Source: an uncultured Lachnospiraceae bacterium
Lineage (GTDB): Bacteria > Bacillota > Clostridia > Lachnospirales > Lachnospiraceae
DNA: 64,000 nucleotides
NCBI GenBank assembly: GCA_944383545.1
Contig: CALWPY010000004.1
Span: forward strand, 124,001 to 188,000
Direction of reading: 5' to 3'
In this document: positions 5,969 to 50,925 of the stretch, piece after piece
Layout of the letters: every line of letters begins with the position of its first letter
Position numbering within the stretch: the stretch's first letter is position 1
Made by a program: the position numbers and the translations under genes
The notes under the pieces: model-generated
The model's database searches: none
What the model saw: the letters and a program-made list of their open reading frames with translations, nothing else
What the model was told of the DNA's origin: nothing

Positions 5969-7825
5969 CTATCTGAGCGAGCAGTCCGGCTTAAGAAATG
6001 TAAGATTAGGATTGTAATATGGGTCATTATTTACAAGCTCATAATTATTTATTAGAAAAAGTCCCTTTTCTGCATCCAGACGTTTTAAAGCCACAGCATC
6101 AATATCCACTCCTCTGGTTTTTGATTCATAGTGATAAAGTTTTGCATTAGGATTATATGTTACCAGTTTTCCTGACTTAAATACTCTCACGCAGAGGTCA
6201 ACGTCATTTACCGCTATTTCCATAAGTTCATTGAAACGGCCGACTTCTTCAAAGACCGTTCTCTTTATCATAAGACATGCTCCTGTTACGGCGCAAAAAT
6301 TCTGAGCCATGCTGCTTCTGTGGAAATAAATTCCGTCATCTTCTTTCATGGCAGCAAATAGATGCCCTGCAATTCCGTTAAAGCCCAGAATAACTCCGGC
6401 ATGCTGAAGTCTTCCGTTCGGGAAGTACATCCTTGCACCTACAACCCCTACCTCATCTCTCTGGCAGAAGGAAACAAGCTCACTTATGCAGTCATTATTT
6501 ATCATTTCAGTATCATTATTGAGAAAAAGAATGTATTCACTGTTTGTTTTATCAACGGCAAAATTACAGATTGCAGAAAAATTAAATTTTCTGTTCCATG
6601 TGAGTATCTTTACTCTCTCATCTGTCTCTATTTTTTCATAATATCTTTTTATGTTCTTTGTCTCGCTGTGGTTTTCCACTATAACTATTTCATAATTATC
6701 ATAGTCCTGTTTAAAAATAGAATTGATACATTTTTCCAGGTCTTCAAAATGATCTTTATTAGGAATAATTATAGAAACCTTAGGCTTATTCCCATCAGCG
6801 TCGGTCTTTATTTTATACCTTGTCCTGTAAAACATACCGTCTTCGCCCGAAAAAACCTCTGCATCTATTCCCATTCTGCTGTAATGGTCGATAAGTGCTC
6901 TCTTTCCTGCTTCATGTGCATAGTTTTTAGAATCCATGCTTCCGGCAGTAGAGCCTTCATGAGCCCTCCAATGATAAAGAGCTGACGGAATATGGGCAAT
7001 ATGTTTACTGCATTCACACAGACCATACAGTTTTGATATTTTTTCAACACAGCGAAGTATAAAATCATAGTCCTGTGCTCCGTCATATTCCTCCCTCATT
7101 TTGCCCACTTTCTTCTGAAAATCCGCAGACACCATAAGCATATGACAGATATAGTTCTGACTTCTAAGTAAATCAAGGCTGAAATCCGGCTTAAAATGAG
7201 GATAAAATCTCTTACTGCTGTCTTCACTTATTTTATCTTCATCTGTATAAATCATAAGAATGTTTTTGCCGTCCTCTTCATTAAGCCTTTCCACACATTC
7301 AAAAAAGGCGTTGGGAGCAATAACATCATCATGGTCAGCAAATACTATCCACTCACCCTTTGCCATCTCAATAGCCTTATTTGTATTTCCCGATATACCA
7401 AGATTTTTTTCAAGTGCATTATATCTTATTCTTAAATCTCCCTTATATCTTTCTTTTATCATGTCAGACACTTTATTTTCTTCCGAAGAAAGACAGCTTC
7501 CGTCTGCAAGGCATAATTCCCAGTTACTGTAGGTCTGCCTTTTTAATGAATCAATAAGCTCAATCAGATATTTTTCCTCTGTTCTGTACATAGGTACAAC
7601 AACGCTTATCAACGGCTCATAATTAAATTCAATATGTCTCTGTTCTAAAAGCTCCTTCTGAGAAGGCTCATTATCCCGACACCAGAGCATATAATTTATT
7701 TTTCTCCGAAACTTCAGATAGTTTACTGCTTTTTTAAAGGTTTTTACCGGTCCCTGACGTTTGAGCATCTTACAACCTTTTAAAAATATATTATCATTCA
7801 TCTCATGACCTTTTTCTTTTCTCAT
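5969..7825 (-). CDS. Two-domain family 2 glycosyltransferase
   Basis: 618 residues with two GT-A folds in tandem. The first (roughly residues 70-290) begins ISVVVPMYRTEEKYL and carries FADHDDV. The second (roughly 345-600) begins VSIIIPNKDHFEDLEKC and carries LFLNNDTEMI. NDVDLCVRVFKSGK resembles the acceptor-site region of the family. A strong GGAGAGG site precedes the ATG at 7825. It is similar in layout to the next gene upstream (7868-9682) and is probably a duplicate of it. Such double-domain enzymes extend rhamnan-type or other surface polysaccharides at the inner face of the membrane. Donor and acceptor sugars cannot be told from sequence. It is the last gene of the glycan cluster. Confidence 0.88.
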   Translation of the reverse strand: MRKEKGHEMNDNIFLKGCKMLKRQGPVKTFKKAVNYLKFRRKINYMLWCRDNEPSQKELLEQRHIEFNYEPLISVVVPMYRTEEKYLIELIDSLKRQTYSNWELCLADGSCLSSEENKVSDMIKERYKGDLRIRYNALEKNLGISGNTNKAIEMAKGEWIVFADHDDVIAPNAFFECVERLNEEDGKNILMIYTDEDKISEDSSKRFYPHFKPDFSLDLLRSQNYICHMLMVSADFQKKVGKMREEYDGAQDYDFILRCVEKISKLYGLCECSKHIAHIPSALYHWRAHEGSTAGSMDSKNYAHEAGKRALIDHYSRMGIDAEVFSGEDGMFYRTRYKIKTDADGNKPKVSIIIPNKDHFEDLEKCINSIFKQDYDNYEIVIVENHSETKNIKRYYEKIETDERVKILTWNRKFNFSAICNFAVDKTNSEYILFLNNDTEMINNDCISELVSFCQRDEVGVVGARMYFPNGRLQHAGVILGFNGIAGHLFAAMKEDDGIYFHRSSMAQNFCAVTGACLMIKRTVFEEVGRFNELMEIAVNDVDLCVRVFKSGKLVTYNPNAKLYHYESKTRGVDIDAVALKRLDAEKGLFLINNYELVNNDPYYNPNLTFLKPDCSLR

Positions 7826-35098: not shown

Positions 35099-35120
35099 TA
35101 AAAGTACTCTTTATTCTAAA

Positions 35121-35223
35121 GTTTCCCTACGTTGGCATTACCCAAATCAGGTTATCGGTCGAAGGTCATACCTTCCTCTCAGCTTGTCCACACAATGCAG
35201 CCTCATCATATACAAGCTCCCGT
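35121..35223 (-). promoter_or_regulatory. TPP riboswitch (thi box)
   Basis: Read on the minus strand, the conserved elements appear in order: a GGGAGC 5' end, GCTGAGAGGAAGG, then GACC, AACCTGATTTGGGTAATGCC and ACGTAGGGAA. These match the thi-box aptamer that binds thiamine pyrophosphate. The terminator hairpin at 35062-35098 follows, and the thi genes lie downstream, so high TPP should stop transcription. Confidence 0.96.
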
Positions 35224-35241
35224 CAATTTATTTTTATATAT

Positions 35242-41659: not shown

Positions 41660-44600
41660 TTATTGATTTTTAACCAACTTGAAATTTTCCAGAGTAATTA
41701 TGGATGCAGGAGTTTCAACAGGAGCCCCTGTACTATCATCCACTATCTGTCCCATTCCTACCTGAATATAAGCATCTGTATCAGTCGGATGCTCACCCGT
41801 AGTAATTGTCATAGTAATTTCCTGCGGTATATTTGCTTCCAATGAAACATTTCCGCCGCCATACCAATTAGCATTTGTACTATCCATGCTGCTTACTTTA
41901 ATACTGCGCGAAACATCAGAGGTTGCAGTAAATGTTAATGTATAGCTTGCACCCTGCTCTAAAGTAATACCACTTTGCTTTAACTGGATATTCCAATCAT
42001 AACTTCCGACATTGGTTATTGCAAATATTGATTTTCCGTCCGCAAAGCTTGCAGTTGCAGATGCAGCAGAATCAACATAAGATGACCATCCTGTCTCTCC
42101 TTCTGAAAAATCTCCATTCGTTAATAAATTATCATCCTGTGATGCAGTTGCATCCACCTTCTTTAAACTAAAGCCTGACAACCTAATGGTTGAAGCCGGA
42201 GTATCACCTGATGCCATCTTGCCCATTGAAACTGTCATTGATGAATTGACATCTGTACTGTTTGACATAGTAAATGTGACAGCTATCTCCTTCGGCGTAT
42301 TTGCTTCCAGCTCAACGCTTTCTCCATAATACCAGTCATAACTTGAGCTCATAAAATCCCATTTAATGCTTCTCGCCACAGTTGATTCAGCAATGAACTT
42401 TAATTCATAATTGCATCCCTGCTCTAATTGAATTCCTTCCTGCTTTAACTGGATATCCCAATCATTTACACCAACATCTCCAATCGTCCATACTGAAGTT
42501 CCGTTTTCAACTGCAACAGAACTTCCAGCATTCACGCTCATAGTCCAGTTATTTGCCGCATCACTAAAGGTGGTATCCTTTAACAATTCCTCTCCTACAG
42601 GCTTTGTAGTAACTGCAGGCGGCTCAATTTTTTCCAGCACAATGTTATCAATACAGATTCTATGCTGATTAGTAATCTGAACATTGCCAACTGCACCCAT
42701 GGAAATACTTAGGATGGAATGTAAATCTGTAGGCTCTGTCATCTGGAATTCCAGAGAATAGTTCTGGTAAGCATCCGTGAGGTCTACTATCTTCTCACCT
42801 GAATATGGTGTCCAGTCTTCTCCGCCGGAATCATTCGTATGAACAGAACCGTCTCTTTGAATTGCAAACATTAACTGTCTGTTAATGCTTGACTTTGCAT
42901 CAAAGCTTAATCGGTACCACTGTCCGTTTTCCAGTTCTACATTATTCTGCTTTAACTGGATTTTCCATGCCGCATCACCGGTATTATTAATTGTAAAATC
43001 AATCGCATTGTCTTCAGTTAAGCTGTCCACCACATAAGTTGCTGAGGCAGAACCATCTACGAATGGCTCGTAACCAGCAAGCCCTGCTGAAAAGCTTCCG
43101 TTCTTAATTAAGCTGTCCTCATCAATTCGTACATTATCCAGGTAGTATGTTCCCGGTTGTGAAAAGATAAATTCCAGATTCTTACTGTTTGCTGATTCTG
43201 CAGTAAACTTGTAAGTATTACCTGTCTGTACTTCCCCTGTTAAATTTACTGAATATGAAGCCTGCCCTGCTACAACGACATCCACTGATGTTCCTGCAGT
43301 TCCCTGTATGTCATAGCTTAATGCATACTCTCCTCCGTCTGTCATAGCCAAATCACTCTGTGAAATCACCACCGTGTTACCTGATGTAACTCCTTCTGGA
43401 ATTACTACCTTTAACCTTCTTCCGTCCGCAAGATTCGTAACGGAAATATCTGCATTTGCTCCATTTTCGATATCCCAGTATTCCGTGCGGCCCTCACCTT
43501 CCTGAAATCCGCCATTATATACATAGTTACCATCTGCAAGCATTACTTTTTTACCGTCATCAACAATTTCCTGATAATCTGTCATCTTAAGAGTTACATT
43601 GCTAATCGAAATACCTGCTGCCGACTCATTTTTTCCCATGTTGAATTCCAAACGGCCATTTGCATCATCTTCATCTGTCATGGAGAAAACATAAGTATAA
43701 GTCTGTTTGGTCGTTGTTAAATCAACTGTTGTATCCGGCATATAACGCTGCCATGAGCGGTCAGGTGCCGATACATCTACAATCATTGTTCTTGGTGAAT
43801 CCGCATAAGCATCAAATGTCAGGGTATAAGTTCCTCCCTTTTTCAGTGGGAGATTAGGCTGCACTAATTGAATACTATGGTTTTCAGTTCCCGTGCTTTC
43901 TGTTGAAACAAAAATCTGGTTTTGACTGATTGCAGCTGCTCCGGTGCCTCCTGCTGCCTGAAGGAAAATCCAGTCTTCATCATCCTCCAAATCCTCAGCT
44001 ACTGCAAAGTCACCATTTACAATATAATTGCCATTTGCATCCGGGTCTCGGAGTATTACCTCTTTTTCCGGTTTTGTAACATTTTCATCATAACTGTCTT
44101 TCTGATATACACGAACATAATCAATTTCATATGCAGCATTTTCAAAATCAGTTGTTTCATCCGGATATCCTACCCAGCTGCCGCCGACTGCAAGATTAAG
44201 TATCATATAAAACGGCTGGTCGAACGGTGCAGGATATGTAATTTCGCCCTGTCCCTCTGTAGCAGAATACCAGTCGTCTGCCGTATGGAATAAAACTCCA
44301 TCTACATACCAGTTAATTCTTCCCGGCTCCCATTCTACGGCAAAGGTATGATATTCATCAGAAAAGCTTCCATCATCTAATGTATATGTTCCCTGGGTTT
44401 CCCTATGCGGATTACCATAGTGAATAGTTCCGTATGTCGTATCGGTATCACTGCCGTGTACCTCCATAATATCAATCTCACCACATCTCGGCCACTGTCC
44501 ATATACGTTTTCATCAGATGCCATTAACCAGAATGCCGGCAGATATCCCTGCCCTTCAGGGACCTTTACTCTCGCCTCAAATAAACCATATGTGAAATCA

Positions 44601-45613
44601 TGCTTTCCCTGAGTATTAATTCTTCCTGAAGTATAGGAAGTACTTCCGTCATCATTCACGGTCTTTATAGGTTTAATTACCAGTCTGCCGTCTTCCAAAT
44701 AAATATTTTCAGAAGAATCAACATATTCCTGCCATTCAGCATTTACCCAGCCCGGGGCATGTAATTCTACATTCCAGTCATCTCTATTTAGTTCCGTTCC
44801 GTCAAATTCATCCTGCCAGATTAAGGAATATCCGTCATAGGATAAGCGGTCTTCTGTTTCTTCCTGCTCATAATATGTAAGTTGGGCGGTCAATGTCACT
44901 GTTTTGCCGTCAATCAATATATTGCTTTCAGTATTAACTGTCTTTTCCTCAGATGCTCCGTCACCCGATTCTGCTGCCATTACACCGGTCCCATTCACCT
45001 GACACATAGAGCCTGCTAATAACACAGCCAAAATGAATGATAATATCTTTTTACCTTTTTCCTTTCTCTTCTTACCTAAGAATACTAAAGCCGCCAGACT
45101 TAATACCCCTGCAAATAAGATTAATTCCGGTAAGAAGGAATCCCCCGTTACTGGTCCTTTTCCATTATCATCTGTACCATCCGCACTGTTTGTACCATTT
45201 GTACCTTCTGTTCCATCTGTATCATTCGTATCGTCGTCTACCTGTGTGTCTCCCGGAACAGAGATTTCCGAATCTTCCTTTGCCATAGTAATTGTTACTT
45301 CTTTTGTTTCACCTGAAGCCAGTTCCGAAATATCATATGTCCACCTGGCAGAATATTTTTCTCCTGAATTTTCCACATCTGCCAAATAACCGTCCGGAAC
45401 ATTACCGCTTACCACGGCATCCTTAATGTCATTATTCGTAACATTAGTTATCACAATTATCTCTTTAATTGTTTCATCACCGGTATACTCCGATTTATCT
45501 GTGTTAATCTGCATTTCCGGTGCCATTTCAGCGGCAAAAGTCACTACGTAAATTGGTAGCATACACATGATTATCGCCAGTATTCCTGCCGCTATTTTGC
45601 TTCTTCTAAGCAT
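41660..45613 (-). CDS. Large GH16 beta-glucanase with five carbohydrate-binding-like modules and internal sorting signal
   Basis: 1317 residues. Order: signal peptide (1-28); an outer beta-sandwich domain (about 30-112); an Asp/Thr/Asn/Gly-rich linker; GPVTGD, a hydrophobic stretch and KKRKEK (154-187), like a degenerate sorting signal; a second signal-peptide-like segment (188-214); a GH16 domain (about 262-505) with the catalytic motif EIDIME at 379-384; then five jelly-roll modules of about 150 residues, each opening NGDF, NGGF, NGSF, DTTF or NGDF. GH16 enzymes cut beta-1,3 or mixed-linkage glucans (laminarin, lichenan, cereal beta-glucan). Substrate undetermined. It lies between terminators as a single-gene unit. 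Confidence 0.92.
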   Translation of the reverse strand: MLRRSKIAAGILAIIMCMLPIYVVTFAAEMAPEMQINTDKSEYTGDETIKEIIVITNVTNNDIKDAVVSGNVPDGYLADVENSGEKYSARWTYDISELASGETKEVTITMAKEDSEISVPGDTQVDDDTNDTDGTEGTNGTNSADGTDDNGKGPVTGDSFLPELILFAGVLSLAALVFLGKKRKEKGKKILSFILAVLLAGSMCQVNGTGVMAAESGDGASEEKTVNTESNILIDGKTVTLTAQLTYYEQEETEDRLSYDGYSLIWQDEFDGTELNRDDWNVELHAPGWVNAEWQEYVDSSENIYLEDGRLVIKPIKTVNDDGSTSYTSGRINTQGKHDFTYGLFEARVKVPEGQGYLPAFWLMASDENVYGQWPRCGEIDIMEVHGSDTDTTYGTIHYGNPHRETQGTYTLDDGSFSDEYHTFAVEWEPGRINWYVDGVLFHTADDWYSATEGQGEITYPAPFDQPFYMILNLAVGGSWVGYPDETTDFENAAYEIDYVRVYQKDSYDENVTKPEKEVILRDPDANGNYIVNGDFAVAEDLEDDEDWIFLQAAGGTGAAAISQNQIFVSTESTGTENHSIQLVQPNLPLKKGGTYTLTFDAYADSPRTMIVDVSAPDRSWQRYMPDTTVDLTTTKQTYTYVFSMTDEDDANGRLEFNMGKNESAAGISISNVTLKMTDYQEIVDDGKKVMLADGNYVYNGGFQEGEGRTEYWDIENGANADISVTNLADGRRLKVVIPEGVTSGNTVVISQSDLAMTDGGEYALSYDIQGTAGTSVDVVVAGQASYSVNLTGEVQTGNTYKFTAESANSKNLEFIFSQPGTYYLDNVRIDEDSLIKNGSFSAGLAGYEPFVDGSASATYVVDSLTEDNAIDFTINNTGDAAWKIQLKQNNVELENGQWYRLSFDAKSSINRQLMFAIQRDGSVHTNDSGGEDWTPYSGEKIVDLTDAYQNYSLEFQMTEPTDLHSILSISMGAVGNVQITNQHRICIDNIVLEKIEPPAVTTKPVGEELLKDTTFSDAANNWTMSVNAGSSVAVENGTSVWTIGDVGVNDWDIQLKQEGIQLEQGCNYELKFIAESTVARSIKWDFMSSSYDWYYGESVELEANTPKEIAVTFTMSNSTDVNSSMTVSMGKMASGDTPASTIRLSGFSLKKVDATASQDDNLLTNGDFSEGETGWSSYVDSAASATASFADGKSIFAITNVGSYDWNIQLKQSGITLEQGASYTLTFTATSDVSRSIKVSSMDSTNANWYGGGNVSLEANIPQEITMTITTGEHPTDTDAYIQVGMGQIVDDSTGAPVETPASIITLENFKLVKNQ

Positions 45614-45745: not shown

Positions 45746-46978
45746 TTATTTCTTCTTCCACGGCACATCATCACCGGATGCCTTAAAGTTATACACAGGC
45801 TTCATAATGTCAATTATATCCACTGAATCACTGATAACCTCAATTATATCCTCAAGTGATTTATATGCCATAGGCGCCTCGTCTATTGTCTTCTCATTTA
45901 CAGAGGTAGTATATATACCCTTCATGGATTCTTTATATGTCTCCATATTAAGAGCTTCCTTTGCTTTAGCACGGGACATTACTCTTCCTGCGCCATGAGG
46001 TGCGGAATAATTCCACTCAGGATTTCCTTTCCCTACCGCTATGACAGAGCCGTCCCTCATATTGATTGGAATTAAGACTTTCTCTCCTTTATGTGCTGCA
46101 ATCGCACCTTTTCTTAAAATCATTTCATCCGTATCAATATAGTTATGAATGGTATGAAAGCCTCCCTCACCCGTCATACCTGTTCTGTCCAATATTATTT
46201 CCGCCATTCTCTCCCTGCTTCTTTTTGCAAAACGCTGGCATATTTCCACATCATGGAGATAGTCCAAAAGGAATGTTCCGTAGAGCCAGCAGATATCCTC
46301 AGGCACTAAAAGATTCTGTGCTTCAAAACTGTTCTTAAGCTCCTTTAAGGCTGTCTGTATCTCGCTTCTTCGCCCCTCTTCCTTATAGGTATTAATAAGC
46401 TCATCACGCTTTTTAAAGTACTCCTCTTTTCCCATATGTAAATCCACCGCAAGCTGCTGATATATTTCAGCTACCTGCTTTCCGAGATTACGGCTTCCCG
46501 AATGAATTATTAAATAAAATGTGCCGTCCTTCGCCTTATCAATTTCTATAAAATGGTTTCCTCCTCCAAGCGTACCAAGAGACCTCTCAAGTCTTCTGGT
46601 ATCTCTCAAGGAACGGTAGCAGCGAAGCTCTGTTAAATCAAACCTCTCCATACGCCCCTCCCATACGCTCTTCCCGGAAGGAATATAATGGCACACCTCA
46701 TCAATCTTTTCAAAATCCATTTCCTTATCAGAAAGCTTCACGGTATACATTCCGCATCCTATATCCACTCCGACAATATTCGGACATGCTCTGTCCGATA
46801 CTGTCATTGTCGTACCTATTGTACAGCCCTTTCCCTCATGCACATCAGGCATGATTCTGATTTTTGCTCCTTCTGTAAGAGCGTAGTCGCACATTCTGCG
46901 AATCTGCTCTATTGCGCCCTCCTCTATGACCTTTGCATAGCAGACGGCTGTATTTACTTTACCCTTTATTTCAAACAT
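45746..46978 (-). CDS. rtcB: RtcB-family RNA ligase
   Basis: 410 residues from the ATG at 46978, which has GGAAAGGA eight bases upstream; the frame runs on to 47038 but overlaps the upstream gene. The catalytic set is complete: MPDVHEGKGCTIG, VGVDIGCGMY (metal-binding Cys), GTLGGGNHFIEI, IIHSGSRNLG, SAPHGAGRVMSRAKA (guanylylated His) and a C-terminal DIMKPVYNFKA. RtcB joins 2',3'-cyclic-phosphate ends to 5'-OH ends with GTP. It follows the TROVE-like gene by 31 bases, an association known for Ro/Rsr proteins. Likely role: repair or processing of cleaved RNA. Confidence 0.95.
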   Translation of the reverse strand: MFEIKGKVNTAVCYAKVIEEGAIEQIRRMCDYALTEGAKIRIMPDVHEGKGCTIGTTMTVSDRACPNIVGVDIGCGMYTVKLSDKEMDFEKIDEVCHYIPSGKSVWEGRMERFDLTELRCYRSLRDTRRLERSLGTLGGGNHFIEIDKAKDGTFYLIIHSGSRNLGKQVAEIYQQLAVDLHMGKEEYFKKRDELINTYKEEGRRSEIQTALKELKNSFEAQNLLVPEDICWLYGTFLLDYLHDVEICQRFAKRSRERMAEIILDRTGMTGEGGFHTIHNYIDTDEMILRKGAIAAHKGEKVLIPINMRDGSVIAVGKGNPEWNYSAPHGAGRVMSRAKAKEALNMETYKESMKGIYTTSVNEKTIDEAPMAYKSLEDIIEVISDSVDIIDIMKPVYNFKASGDDVPWKKK

Positions 46979-47009
46979 ATTATCAATCCTTTCCAACTTA
47001 ATCGGAGCA

Positions 47010-48503
47010 CTATGCTGAAATTTTAGCATAACGCTCACTTAATAGAGTATCCGTCATTATTTTATATGGAGATAAATCATCTCCTGCAACCATTGAAAAA
47101 ATCTGAGGTGTCGCACCGGATACAAGTGCCACTCCCTGCTCGTTTAATTCTACAGGCTGTTGTCTGTTTCTGCTTGCCACATTCCAGAATATAACATTTG
47201 GCAGCCTGTAGCCCCAAGCTTCAAATTTTCTCCTGGCATTTATAAAGTTAGTTCTTGAAGCATTCTCCGCACAATAATCAAATTCCATATCGGATATAAT
47301 TACGAGCTTTACAGGAAGCTGTTCCTGTGGAAGATGATTTTTTACTGCTGTTTTAAGAATGAGTTCAAAAACTGCTTCTATATTTGTATTTGCAACCTCG
47401 CTAAATGTTGTTATATAACTGAGTTTTTCAAAAAAGGTTTTTCCCTTTATCTCAATTAATTGTGGTTTCTCCGAAAATGTTATAAAATGGTTTGCAAAAG
47501 CACCTTTGTTTCTCTCTGCAAAATACATCCCCAGAGAAAGTGCCACAGAAGTAGGCTTTGGATTGGCTCTGCCGTACATTGACCCCGAAGTGTCCACTAC
47601 CGCAATCGCATTTTCAGAGCCTCCAAAATCAGGAAGTGAATTCCATGTGGCATTTAGGACCTTCTTTTCTTTTTCTGAAATATTTTTTACAAAACTGTAT
47701 CTATGATTTTTACTGTAAAAGATTCCTAAATACGGGTCGATTAATTCATATGGTGAAATATTTTCTGAATTAAGTTTTGCATTTCCTTCTGACACGCTGT
47801 TTAAAAACTCATTATATCTTTCATAATCATTTCTCATAAAGGCTTTTTTGTATTTAAACATTGCACGGGAAGGCTGTTTTTCGTAATCAAAGGTGTAATC
47901 CTTTTCACGAAGGTTATTTTCTATTATATGTATCTTTTTTCTTAATGAAGAAAGTGATTTTCTGTATTCAGAATCGCTGATTAAAAAAAATCCTGCAATC
48001 CTTTTTGCCGCTCTTACAGTTTCCTTATTTGAAGCATTTATTGACGGAAGCCACTTTGCAAGAAGAGAAATATTTTCTCCTTTTTCGAGCGCTGTCATAT
48101 CCGCTTCAAATTTTTCTTTGATATAAGAAAGCATATCTTTTTCACATGGCGTATCAAGGAGTAACAAGAGGTCATCATAGCGGCCATATTCCGCTACATA
48201 TTCTATATTCTTTCTTACAGAGTCAGGATTGTTTTCCGAAAGCCAGTTAAATGCTATACGGAAAAATCTTCTTTCTCCCAATCCACCCCTTATATCTCTG
48301 GCAAAGAAAAGGAGTTTCATTGCTAAATCAGGATTTTCCATATAAGCTCTTATGAAACGGCTTATAATTTCTTCTTCTGATGCATGACGAAGTGCTCCCG
48401 CTGTTGCAAACAGGTCCAGACAGTCAGAGCCTGTGCTCATGTATGTAGTTGCGCCATTTTCAGTTGTAGTTAAGTTTGCTTCATTTTTCAAATAATTTAA
48501 CAT
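47010..48503 (-). CDS. TROVE-like/vWA protein (DUF2828 type), Ro60-related
   Basis: 497 residues from the ATG at 48503 with AAAGGAG upstream. The N-terminal ~290 residues are helical repeats like those of the Ro/TROVE ring (MKLLFFARDIRGGLGERRFF, NIEYVAEYGRYDDLLLLL, LLAKWLPSINASNKET). The C-terminal ~190 residues form a von Willebrand A domain with a metal site: AIAVVDTSGSMYG, TNIEAVF and VIISDMEFDYC. The wording resembles DUF2828, found in plants and giant viruses. Ro proteins hold misfolded or Y RNAs. Neighbouring rtcB and a structured RNA upstream support an RNA-quality-control role. Confidence 0.85.
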   Translation of the reverse strand: MLNYLKNEANLTTTENGATTYMSTGSDCLDLFATAGALRHASEEEIISRFIRAYMENPDLAMKLLFFARDIRGGLGERRFFRIAFNWLSENNPDSVRKNIEYVAEYGRYDDLLLLLDTPCEKDMLSYIKEKFEADMTALEKGENISLLAKWLPSINASNKETVRAAKRIAGFFLISDSEYRKSLSSLRKKIHIIENNLREKDYTFDYEKQPSRAMFKYKKAFMRNDYERYNEFLNSVSEGNAKLNSENISPYELIDPYLGIFYSKNHRYSFVKNISEKEKKVLNATWNSLPDFGGSENAIAVVDTSGSMYGRANPKPTSVALSLGMYFAERNKGAFANHFITFSEKPQLIEIKGKTFFEKLSYITTFSEVANTNIEAVFELILKTAVKNHLPQEQLPVKLVIISDMEFDYCAENASRTNFINARRKFEAWGYRLPNVIFWNVASRNRQQPVELNEQGVALVSGATPQIFSMVAGDDLSPYKIMTDTLLSERYAKISA

Positions 48504-48534
48504 GAGATTTCTCCTTTCCGAGTTATAAAATACC

Positions 48535-48675
48535 AAGGCGCAGACTGCTTTGCGTATGTCATCAGCAAAGCAGGTTTATTCTTTAAAATAAGACCATGAA
48601 AATTGCTGTATGCGCCTTTATTTGCAAGCATGCGTTTTTCGGAGTTTATCCGAAGACCTCTGACATCAGGTCCGC
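48535..48675 (-). ncRNA. Structured RNA candidate upstream of the TROVE-like gene (possible Y-RNA analogue)
   Basis: Domain one (48535-48618) is a three-way junction. AAGGCGCA (48535-48542) pairs with TGCGCCTT (48611-48618) and encloses a perfect 9-base hairpin CTGCTTTGC/GCAAAGCAG (48545-48573). It also encloses a second hairpin of 7 bases with one bulge (48574-48594). Domain two (48632-48675) has two hairpins, TTCGGA/TCCGAA (48638-48654) and GACCT/AGGTC (48655-48672), between GCG and CGC. It could be a Y-like RNA bound by the TROVE-like protein, or a regulatory leader. No tRNA-like T-loop sequence is seen, unlike YrlA. No poly-U end is present, so processing would be needed. Confidence 0.5.
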
Positions 48676-48721
48676 TCTGTTTACATTGACATCTTACAAT
48701 ATATGGAAATACTTATCACGG

Positions 48722-48763
48722 AAAAAAAGTTGCGAACTTAAATTTAAAGCTCGCAACTTTTTT
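48722..48763 (-). terminator. Terminator after the WYL gene pair
   Basis: AAAAAAGTTGCGA (48724-48736) pairs with TCGCAACTTTTTT (48751-48763), with T runs on both sides. The stop codon of the second WYL gene (48744-48746) lies in the loop. It separates the WYL pair from the structured RNA and TROVE-rtcB unit. Confidence 0.88.
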
Positions 48764-49655
48764 GGTTAATCAGTCTCTTCTTTATTAATTCTATAAAATG
48801 CTGAGGTGCCGTAACCCTAATCATTGGTCCGAATGAAAGAATTCGTATTACAATTTCCATCTCATCATCTTTATCGTAAGAAACTGTAATTCGGTACCTC
48901 TCGTCATCCAGTTTTTCAGCCTGCTTTTTAAAATGTGCAAAGTGAAGAAGCACACGCTCCAGAGCATTCCTTTTATCAACCAGTTCAAAAATAACCGTTC
49001 TCTCTCTTAAGGGAGTTTTTTTCGCATGCTCAGCATCAAAAGACTCATTATAAGTCTTTACACTTATAATTCTGCTTAAATTTACGGTACTTCCAAACTT
49101 TTCTCCCGAGCCTGTCAGGCGGAATTTATCATCCTTCTCCGAATACTCCAGATATTCAGGCATTAAAATTATATGTACTGCTTCTCCGTTTCTGCTCGTT
49201 GTTTCAATGTCTAAAGGATATCTTTTCTTTATTGCATCCAGTGTAAGCCGGAAATTCTTTATGTAAACTTCATCAGAAAAGGGGTCGCCGTCTGCATATT
49301 TATCAAATACAATAATATCCTCCGGTTTAAAAAGCGGCTCTACATCCGTGAAATCCAAAGTCTTATCCGTAAACAGCTTAATCCTTTTATCCATAAAGAT
49401 TGCCTTAAGCCATCTCTTTTGAAGTGTAGTAAGCGGCATGGTGGGAACATTTTTTATCGTTGTTTTTCCATCAGGTTTTAAAAGCTGCCACCTCTCCTCT
49501 TTAAACGCGGGAATGATGTTTAACATACTTTCGGAAAAAGCATGTTTCTCTATTATTGTCTGAAGCTCATTATCTGAAAGAGGGTGTTTTATCGCTTCCG
49601 TAATTATTTTTGCAACAGTATTATAATACGCACTGTAAAGCTCACTGAATACCAT
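48744..49655 (-). CDS. WYL-domain protein (second of a pair)
   Basis: 303 residues if it starts at the ATG at 49655, which overlaps the end of the first WYL gene by 14 bases and has GGTGGGG nearby; a start at 49688 is possible. The N-terminal half is helical (MPLTTLQKRWLKAIFMDKRI). The C-terminal half is WYL-like (about 165-240: LSRIISVKTYNESF; then TVIFELVDKRNALERVLLHF). No clear DNA-binding HTH is seen, so it may act with its partner. WYL proteins are ligand-responsive regulators, often of defence and RNA-repair genes. Confidence 0.8.
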   Translation of the reverse strand: MVFSELYSAYYNTVAKIITEAIKHPLSDNELQTIIEKHAFSESMLNIIPAFKEERWQLLKPDGKTTIKNVPTMPLTTLQKRWLKAIFMDKRIKLFTDKTLDFTDVEPLFKPEDIIVFDKYADGDPFSDEVYIKNFRLTLDAIKKRYPLDIETTSRNGEAVHIILMPEYLEYSEKDDKFRLTGSGEKFGSTVNLSRIISVKTYNESFDAEHAKKTPLRERTVIFELVDKRNALERVLLHFAHFKKQAEKLDDERYRITVSYDKDDEMEIVIRILSFGPMIRVTAPQHFIELIKKRLINQKSCEL

Positions 49656-50925
49656 TTTCCCCACCGCCTTCCAATCCATAAAGGGCATACATTTTCATTA
49701 TGTCATTTTTAAATTTTTCCTCCAGCTTTTTATCGGAAAAACTGATATCTGTAATCCTGCATATAAATGTTCTTATCCACGGCACAAGCTCTTCCGCATC
49801 ATAAACATCTGCCGAAAACCTTATTTTGTTACCCTCCAGATATTCCAGTGTTCCGCAACGCTTTTCCCTCTCCATACGTCTTGGTATATACTGTTCATAC
49901 TCTGCGTAACGTATGGTAAATTCCACATGCTCCATACGTTCTCCCGAACTCCCCTGAGTGCTTACGCCCCAGATATGCGGAAGCATTCCTTTTAATTTTT
50001 CCTGAAGAATATCATAATCCGTATTTTCTGATTCAGTAATTTTTCTTTCATTATTTACTGAACAAGTTTTAACCGAGACGATATTATCCAGTCTGTAGGA
50101 TGTGATTCTTTTAAACCGCGGAACATAAGCCATAAGATACTGCCTTCCGCTCTGTGCACTTATCATAATCTTAAGCGGTACCACATCATTTTCCGTAAAA
50201 ACTTCTTTTTTTCTGGTCAAAATATCCAAGTCTATACTGCATTTTTCCTGCATGGCCATAAGAAGCAGACAAAGCACCTCGCTGTCCATGGCAGAAGTAA
50301 TGTAATGGTGCTTAAACAAAAAATTTTCTTCATGAGAATCAATCTTATCAAGAAGAAATGAGCCCACAACACCACAGGGAGAAACTTCAGAAAAGAAGTC
50401 AAGTATGTCACAGTTAACAGGCTCAGACATCTTGTTTCTTTTATAATAAGCTGTCTTTCCCTTCTTTTCTGTTATAATTATTCCTGCCTCTGTATATTCC
50501 TTAAGTTTTTTTCTTACGGTCGATACATCAAAATATCTGGGATTTTCAAACTGCCCGAGATAATCATCAAGCTCCTCCATTATTTCATTAATGGAAAGAC
50601 TTTTATCTTCATCCGAAAGAATGTCAAACAATATAAAATGCAGTGTAATGTCTCCGTCCGTAAAGCTTTTCGTTTTCCATGCCTTATAAAGCGGATTATG
50701 ACGGGATTGTCTGCTGTCAATCGAAATAAAGACATTCTTTCCGTCAGGCGTCCTGCGAAACTGCATATAATCACCCAGCCAGCTCTCTAAGCGGCGACGT
50801 TCATCATCATATGAGCGCGCACTCTTTTTCGTATATTCGTCCCTGCTCTTAAAGCCATAAACATAGAACTCACGCATGTAGTCACGTATTCGGTTGAAAT
50901 TTTTTACAAGTTCATTGTAAGACAT
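49642..50925 (-). CDS. WYL-domain transcriptional regulator (first of a pair)
   Basis: 427 residues. A winged-helix region lies at about 70-165 (LHFILFDILSDEDKSLSINE, then VSTVRKKLKEYTEAGII). A WYL domain lies at about 245-300 (VPLKIMISAQSGRQYLMAYV, then ITSYRLDNIVSVKT), and a C-terminal extension typical of WYL regulators (YIPRRMEREKR, AEELVPWIRTFICRI) follows. It begins three bases after the transketolase subunit stop, so it is the tail of the pentose operon and very likely co-transcribed. Its natural target may be the TROVE-rtcB unit just beyond the terminator. Confidence 0.9.
   Translation of the reverse strand: MSYNELVKNFNRIRDYMREFYVYGFKSRDEYTKKSARSYDDERRRLESWLGDYMQFRRTPDGKNVFISIDSRQSRHNPLYKAWKTKSFTDGDITLHFILFDILSDEDKSLSINEIMEELDDYLGQFENPRYFDVSTVRKKLKEYTEAGIIITEKKGKTAYYKRNKMSEPVNCDILDFFSEVSPCGVVGSFLLDKIDSHEENFLFKHHYITSAMDSEVLCLLLMAMQEKCSIDLDILTRKKEVFTENDVVPLKIMISAQSGRQYLMAYVPRFKRITSYRLDNIVSVKTCSVNNERKITESENTDYDILQEKLKGMLPHIWGVSTQGSSGERMEHVEFTIRYAEYEQYIPRRMEREKRCGTLEYLEGNKIRFSADVYDAEELVPWIRTFICRITDISFSDKKLEEKFKNDIMKMYALYGLEGGGENGIQ

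Follow-up and report, generated by a model that had tools for sequence, protein, structure and literature searches.

A Ro60-fold protein, handle-bearing RNAs, RtcB and WYL regulators in a candidate RNA-repair regulon of Lachnospiraceae

Y RNAs encoded near Ro60 genes, some of them tRNA-like, have already been reported, a tRNA-like module in at least one of the RNAs being a criterion of the class, and Chen et al., in 2014, are said to have found them in more than 250 bacteria and phages. PMC7790460 connects Ro60 and Y RNAs with RNA repair, describing rtcBA operons of which some include Ro60 orthologues and Y RNAs, and considering it possible that the tRNA-like domain of YrlA inhibits the nuclease. 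In Makarova et al., WYL and CARF domains are predicted to bind ligands, and a survey of jumbo phages mentions TROVE proteins for a limited number of phages. Here, a locus with features of these systems is described in a 64,000-nucleotide (nt) stretch of the genome of an uncultured Lachnospiraceae bacterium (GCA_944383545.1, contig CALWPY010000004.1, positions 124,001 to 188,000), referred to below as the window. It encodes two WYL proteins (WYLa and WYLb), a structured RNA, a Ro60-fold protein (the Ro-like protein) and the RNA ligase RtcB, in this order on the (-) strand.

On balance, the locus is probably an inducible, WYL-controlled Ro/Y-RNA/RtcB regulon for RNA repair. WYLa and WYLb would work as a pair, in the manner of PafB and PafC, whose genes are adjacent as the two WYL genes are here, and would respond to a product that arises when nucleic acids or translation are under stress. 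The pair would then turn on promoters with TTCGCAAC-T7-nnn-TGAT placed 40 nt ahead of a -10 box, and thereby one or more small RNAs, the Ro-like protein and RtcB. The protein may grip each RNA by a common handle, an 8-base-pair (bp) stem with ACAGCAA, leaving the enclosed insert as the working part, whether adapter or decoy; tRNA-like inserts, or a handle placed within the anticodon arm encoded by a tRNA gene, could direct the protein to tRNA-like shapes. The ribonucleoprotein would present or shield broken or threatened structured RNAs, tRNAs above all, and RtcB would reseal breaks with 2',3'-cyclic-phosphate and 5'-OH ends.

The locus and its protein families

Open reading frame (ORF) calls in the window give the gene line set out in Table 1, and the anatomy from which the original prediction was drawn stands: two overlapping WYL genes (by 47 nt) adjoin, a structured RNA lies upstream of a DUF2828-type TROVE/vWA gene, and rtcB begins 31 bases behind that gene. 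Two starts were chosen by eye. The Ro-like protein was taken to begin at the ATG behind AAAGGAG, the mechanical ORF beginning at a TTG at 48536, and RtcB at the ATG behind GGAAAGGA, which gives the 31-base gap; an alternative, longer RtcB ORF with a GTG start at 47038 would overlap the Ro-like gene.

Table 1. Features of the locus, in window coordinates (aa, amino acids)
Feature	Position	Strand	Remarks
WYLa	49642..50925	(-)	427 aa, first of the WYL gene pair
WYLb	48744..49688	(-)	predicted WYL-WCX regulator, 314 aa
Promoter element TTCGCAACTTTTTTTCCGTGA	48716..48736	(-)	proposed WYL binding site
-10 box TAAGAT	48691..48696	(-)	40 nt from element start; read from sequence
Structured RNA	48532..48619	(-)	8-bp terminal stem, ACAGCAA, two-hairpin insert
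Ro60-fold protein (TROVE ring + vWA), DUF2828/DUF7788	47010..48503	(-)	497 aa
RtcB RNA ligase	45746..46978	(-)	410 aa, follows the Ro-like gene after 31 nt

RtcB matches PF01139 in Pfam with an expectation value (E) of 2.8e-56 and, over three weak pieces, the archaeal RtcB 4dwr in the PDB (E 1.5e-16), with which its active-site motifs DIGCGM, GNHFIE, HSGSR and HGAGR align. The Ro-like protein has Pfam matches to DUF7788 (E 3.4e-44) and DUF2828 (E 2e-39) and shows the fold of Ro60/TROVE proteins, a TROVE ring plus a vWA domain, and Pfam TROVE itself (PF05731) has no match in it or anywhere else in its own genome.

WYLa was assigned from sequence only (alignment A5, 24 rows): it matches the PADLOC WYL model (E 2.3e-12), with no Pfam match at 1e-3 and no PDB sequence match at E<=0.1. 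WYLb matches the same PADLOC model (E 2.3e-5) and scores 20.4 bits against Pfam WCX, below the cut-off of 23.9. The best PDB matches of its AlphaFold2 model (predicted local distance difference test, pLDDT, 81.5; predicted template modelling score, pTM, 0.52) are the WYL activators and regulators PafBC, DriD and BrxR, and the modelled structure points to a WYL-WCX fold resembling the activators PafBC and DriD. The earlier suggestion of a divergent Ro60/RtcB system, with the WYL genes as its likely regulators, is supported. Interpretation as a defence system was set aside, PADLOC having returned WYL plus weaker matches only.

A class of RNAs with a common handle

The window RNA (88 nt) folds at -27.5 kcal/mol (z -3.2), a value reached by none of 200 shuffles, and scores 42.8 bits with the covariance model R1 described below, whose training set includes it. 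It is the one unit detected in the window, and its insert is without a T-arm. No Rfam family matches it at gathering score, and the 12 sub-threshold matches between 48400 and 48800 at E<=10 include no Y RNA; a riboswitch or other known RNA was accordingly rejected, the best of these matches, Spd-sr07 (E 0.058), covering the hairpin at the wylB end. Between the -10 box and the detected element, a possible degenerate second element (AAGATG...ACAGAGC...GCATGCTTG) can be picked out by eye at 48626-48690 (-), where R1 detects nothing.

The RNA belongs to a class defined by its 8-bp terminal stem, followed by ACAGCAA, and by unlike inserts. Repeated units of the form AAGRYRC-N-N-ACAGCAA ... N-GYRYCTT-G recur in several of nine upstream stretches that were inspected, and one scan of the genome contigs gave 25 homologous loci. 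A first, hand-made scan, with about two opposite-strand matches per locus, served only to choose training elements: 64 units from 32 loci were selected for a 7-bp stem, ACAGCA and TTG, and 58 of them form alignment A2, one having been dropped for length and five by eye as near-duplicates or long. Because a single 5'-arm pattern, AAARRYRYNNACAGCAA, proved too loose (it matches 158 of 299 genomes), a covariance model, R1, was used instead, trained on bacterial loci and built with the 8-bp stem only.

Over the 58 bacterial elements 96.8% of stem cells are paired, against 32-54% in slid controls, and six of the eight stem pairs show changes on both sides, the other two being invariant. Only the eighth pair is a free test of the bacterial stem, because the other seven were the selection rule; it is paired in 42 of 57 elements and occurs as six types (AU, CG, UA, GC, GU and UG). 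In held-out viral elements (alignment A3, the best 150 of 172 matches, fitted to R1) all eight pairs vary on both sides and 94.7% are paired, the eighth holding in only 89 of 149; nine of the 80 viral loci (L143, L144, L151, L160, L171, L173, L179, L183 and L198) were left out of A3 as near-duplicates by equal scores. Similar ends around unrelated middles could suggest inserted units, and hence a small functionless mobile repeat that has accumulated near tRNA and Ro genes. This is very improbable in view of the compensatory stem changes, the association with strand and gene across bacteria and phages, and the promoter element that the units have in common.

Applied to 55 sources including the window (832 kilobases, kb), R1 gave 109 matches at E<=0.1. 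In 60 family genomes, half of them drawn from the 269 lacking a match to the protein, it found elements at E<=0.01 in 17 of the 30 with a Ro-like protein and in none of the 30 without; at E<=1 the counts were 24 and two (E 0.47 and 0.81), and some matches at E 0.1-1 stand away from the Ro-like gene. A second match in the window's own genome (C7:41536-41627, E 0.0045) was taken as chance, lying by eye within the atpF/atpH coding sequence. Among held-out viral contigs, of which 80 were kept from 346 encoding a relative, there were 214 matches at E<=1 in 69 loci (counted by hand), all except one on the strand of the Ro-like gene. A survey of the phylum found seven of 348 genomes positive; the five held-out full-length loci (L225-L229, three genera, L226-L228 being one genus) carry one to three elements each, and two further stretches with partial or broken matches (L230 and L231) have no R1 element.

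In thirteen named phages R1 found 28 matches at E<=1, every one of them on the strand of the Ro-like gene. Nine of the phages have matches at E<=0.1; of these 26 stronger matches, 24 fall in annotated records outside every listed feature and two in an unannotated record. Bacillus phage FADO, a phage of B. subtilis, has five elements. In Listeria phage P100 (L233), three handle-like units can be seen upstream by eye, two of them weakly detected by R1, and gp160, annotated as a 'tRNA splicing ligase', lies 1.3 kb after the Ro-like gp165. R1 matched nothing in six PF05731 loci of 3.1-3.4 kb each. Threshold matches of Rfam to loci of the class were to tRNA only, in 14 distinct loci, with no Y RNA family among them; in the array of L006 Rfam gave tRNA plus two sub-threshold RAGATH matches on the opposite strand.

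At least one element at E<=0.1 is carried by 49 of 62 bacterial Ro-like loci; all 120 elements lie on the strand of the Ro-like gene, and 119 fall in the interval from -2.5 kb to +0.1 kb relative to the start predicted for it. Of the best 150 viral elements, likewise all on the gene's strand, 119 occupy the same interval and 26 lie more than 1.2 kb past the start. The median element length is 77 nt in bacteria and 65 nt in viral loci. The predicted association with a structured RNA was borne out, but the RNA is often one of several, phages included, the largest bacterial array holding eight (L006). Units of one locus have the handle in common and little else, as none of 340 within-locus insert pairs shares more than 30% of 9-mers.

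The promoter element and its gene company

Upstream of many arrays stands TTCGCAACTTTTTTT-nnn-TGAT, and in 29 of 43 copies in the fetched loci the best -10 hexamer has an offset of exactly 40 nt, counted from where the element starts. In the window copy, a different hexamer, at offset 33, was favoured by the script. The window element has no mismatch and is the only match in its own genome at up to two mismatches. At the same tolerance, 299 family genomes hold 43 places (a set separate from the 43 copies above) versus 13 for the reversed pattern. Eighteen of these places have zero or one mismatch, and 17 of them lie beside a Ro-like gene, WYL genes, rtcB or an RNA element: nine at a Ro-like gene, six next to rtcB, WYL genes or both in stretches that lack a Ro-like gene, one behind a WYL pair before another gene, and one before an element on a contig without a Ro-like gene. 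Only L118 has no known partner. Nine of the other 25 places were looked at. One, in G088, lies at a Ro-like gene; the other eight are an AAATGA variant, with a more distant type of rtcB adjoining in six (L122, L124-L127 and L129) and WYL genes too in L122, L124, L125 and L126, whereas L130 has WYL genes only and L123 neither. WYL genes, promoter and rtcB thus occur together also where the Ro-like protein does not, and the element, shared by the promoters of arrays, Ro-like gene and rtcB, defines a candidate regulon.

In genome G091, elements stand behind this promoter on short contigs without a Ro-like gene, in L134 before a small ORF (R1 44.8 bits) and in L128, where R1 gives no more than 15.6 bits (E 0.24) and the handle was read by eye, before a terminator-like hairpin; they therefore favour RNA genes as members of the regulon in their own right. 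They also bear on whether the elements are instead leader structures of the Ro-like mRNA, which the protein would bind to control its own level or processing. Nearly all bacterial elements lie just upstream of the gene on the same strand, as such cis regulation would have it, yet arrays of up to eight different units, viral copies behind the gene, the tRNA-embedded form described below and, weak as L128 is, the separately promoted copies of L134 and L128 all speak against it, and it is considered unlikely.

WYL genes occur in 22 and RtcB in 20 of the 62 bacterial Ro-like loci, as counted by phmmer with two query types in fetched stretches, some of which end at contig ends. The expectation that both accompany the protein in every genome was accordingly given up: each is found in about a third of loci, and the core pair is therefore the Ro-like protein and the RNA, which WYL and RtcB often join as a module. 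The comparison of gene order in related genomes, as proposed with the original prediction, places the RNA beside the Ro-like gene in the 49 loci above, with four more having the tRNA-embedded form only. The absence of both WYL genes and RNA element from relatives, named there as grounds for abandoning the idea, did not occur.

Several further observations concern the promoter and its surroundings. At the wylB end of the window locus, an inverted repeat (48722-48735 / 48751-48763) contains TTGCGA/TCGCAA together with runs of A and of T; it has the promoter element as one of its arms, and the terminator-like hairpin so formed overlaps the proposed operator. Ordinary tRNA genes lie between the Ro-like gene and rtcB in L009 (four) and L025 (three), the latter having a second promoter element ahead of the tRNA genes and rtcB; six more lie about 1.9 kb behind rtcB in L122. 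Around position 6288 (-) of L119, tRNA-like fragments and an unassigned ORF of 691 aa come after the element. By eye, the element precedes slipin/SPFH-like genes in L121 and L123; the genes raised in an Anabaena trcR mutant also include a slipin, according to PMC10272220.

tRNA-bearing forms and comparison with known systems

T-arms occur in 23 of 121 bacterial inserts (0.75 in shuffles) and 23 of 150 viral inserts (1.15 in shuffles), and 21 of the 62 bacterial loci have an element with one. Whole tRNAs lie inside at least two units according to ARAGORN (L002 5890-5961, Met cat; L016 5750-5821, Ala tgc). Seven stretches in phage loci, 113-130 nt long, match the tRNA model of Rfam. In the two inspected, the surplus lies in the anticodon arm and by eye holds a circularly permuted handle, GYRYCTT-loop-AAGRYRC-NN-ACAGCAA. 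The permuted hairpin was an unspecific marker when sought without tRNA halves (viral loci 183 versus 94 on the other strand, bacterial loci 181 versus 147, by locus strand) and was rejected as such. When a D-arm-like pattern ahead of the hairpin and a T-arm after it were also required, the scan gave 39 sites in 27 of the 80 viral loci (near-duplicates L142-L144, L159/L160 and L174/L183 included), all on the strand of the Ro-like gene and none on the opposite one. Nine of the 62 bacterial loci have 11 such sites between them, again only on the strand of the gene. The 18 promoter loci gave none, and the 13 named phages a single site, not genuine by eye. Four bacterial loci without an R1 match (L069, L071, L077 and L079) have the tRNA-embedded form, so that one form or the other is present in 53 of 62.

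With minima of six acceptor, three D and four T pairs, ten of the 11 bacterial sites parse as tRNA. The T stem is 5/5 in all ten, the acceptor 7/7 in nine and 6/7 in one, and the D stem 4/4 in nine with three pairs in one; eight keep all three stems in full, with the anticodon arm interrupted. Folding shows the acceptor, D and T stems plus an extra hairpin in L078, L068 and L071 (z -4.3, -2.9 and -2.4).

These tRNA features raise the possibility, held tentatively, that the RNAs are tRNA decoys: tRNA-like inserts and handle-bearing tRNAs would serve as bait for anticodon nucleases or for further toxins that attack tRNA. By keeping or concentrating the baits, the Ro-like protein would spare real tRNAs, and other inserts would mimic other RNA targets. 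The excess of T-arms over shuffled inserts is consistent with this, as are the tRNA genes whose stems are kept around an interrupted anticodon arm, the unlikeness of inserts within a locus, and the richness of viral loci (51 of 80) in tRNA genes; about four in five inserts, which have no T-arm, tell against it. Such baiting could also be the effector step of the proposed WYL-controlled regulon. Three viral contigs with a Ro-like gene (L135-L137) carry a Pyl (cta) tRNA in ARAGORN's calls, which could be a suppressor tRNA.

The handle in the anticodon arm might instead be intron-like, cut out and the ends sealed by RtcB, the tRNAs becoming active only when the system is on. Three of the ten parsed sites (L068 5331, L078 7489 and L079; anticodons GTC, GAT and TTT) have an intact U33 anticodon loop behind the insert and can form a full 5-bp anticodon stem if its first base, or its first two or three, are taken from ahead of the insert, and three more (L076, L077 and L229) reach four pairs with U33. 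The other four have no U33 loop with at least four pairs, however, the borders of the insert vary, L079 folds no better than shuffles, and RtcB lies in the fetched stretch of just one, L229, of the nine bacterial loci with the tRNA-embedded form; splicing of this kind is thought improbable. It is hardly more likely that the handle is a general address tag, grafted onto arbitrary RNAs including live tRNA genes for Ro60-type control, in which case tagged tRNAs would be conditional, inert until cut and resealed by an RtcB-type ligase in a bacterial, Ro-guided counterpart of tRNA splicing.

In the rest of the window, the gene directly behind rtcB, at 41660-45613 (-), encodes a protein of 1317 aa that has GH16 as well as four CBM_4_9 stretches, and a thiamine pyrophosphate (TPP) riboswitch is found at 35107-35233 (-) with 59 bits.

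The signature bears on the open question of bacterial Ro60 and Y RNA function, as it allows likely RNA partners of Ro60 to be sought in any genome, whether as arrays, copies away from the gene or tagged tRNA genes, in bacteria and phages alike and including phages of laboratory hosts such as FADO. The candidate regulon makes an RNA-repair signal outside the world of RtcR testable. Should the tagged tRNAs prove to be decoys or spliceable, bacteria and phages would have in common a hitherto unrecognised means of protecting or controlling tRNA. A literature search covering few subscription journals found no description of the arrays of unlike units, the stem/ACAGCAA signature, the tRNA-embedded form or the WYL-linked promoter, and a prior description is possible; for DUF2828 it returned four papers, on plants as judged by title.

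Among regulators, PafBC and DriD resemble the present system in the modelled fold of WYLb and in a promoter element at a fixed distance from the -10 box; the regulon proposed here is one of RNA repair, which sets it apart from theirs. The control of rtcBA by RtcR, a CARF protein acting with sigma-54, is similar in that a dedicated regulator of an RtcB operon is linked to damaged tRNA, as PMC7790460 has it; the proposed regulators here are of another family, and the -10 box is sigma-70-like. In Anabaena, according to PMC10272220, a single stress regulator, TrcR, governs both the trn tRNA operon and rtcB. This recalls the tRNA genes found in some of the loci here, but TrcR is a ribbon-helix-helix (RHH) repressor and the Anabaena genes lie apart; the main text of that paper mentions neither TROVE nor Ro60. 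Ro-like proteins of phages, including mycobacteriophages and Listeria phage P100 (gp165), belong to the same family by tblastn (680 phage records), and some are annotated as Ro-like or RNA-binding, although the 24 R1 matches outside every listed feature set the RNAs apart from those annotations. Compared with Ro60/Rsr and its Y RNAs in Deinococcus and in the rsr-yrlBA-rtcBA locus of Salmonella, the protein is DUF2828/DUF7788 in a genome without a PF05731 match, and the RNAs differ in their stem/ACAGCAA signature, the lack of an Rfam Y RNA match, their arrays of unlike units, the tRNA-embedded permuted form and the WYL-linked promoter. What the two have in common, as PMC7790460 describes the known system, is a Ro60-fold protein beside structured RNAs with ends predicted to pair, some of them apparently tRNA-like, and a link to RtcB.

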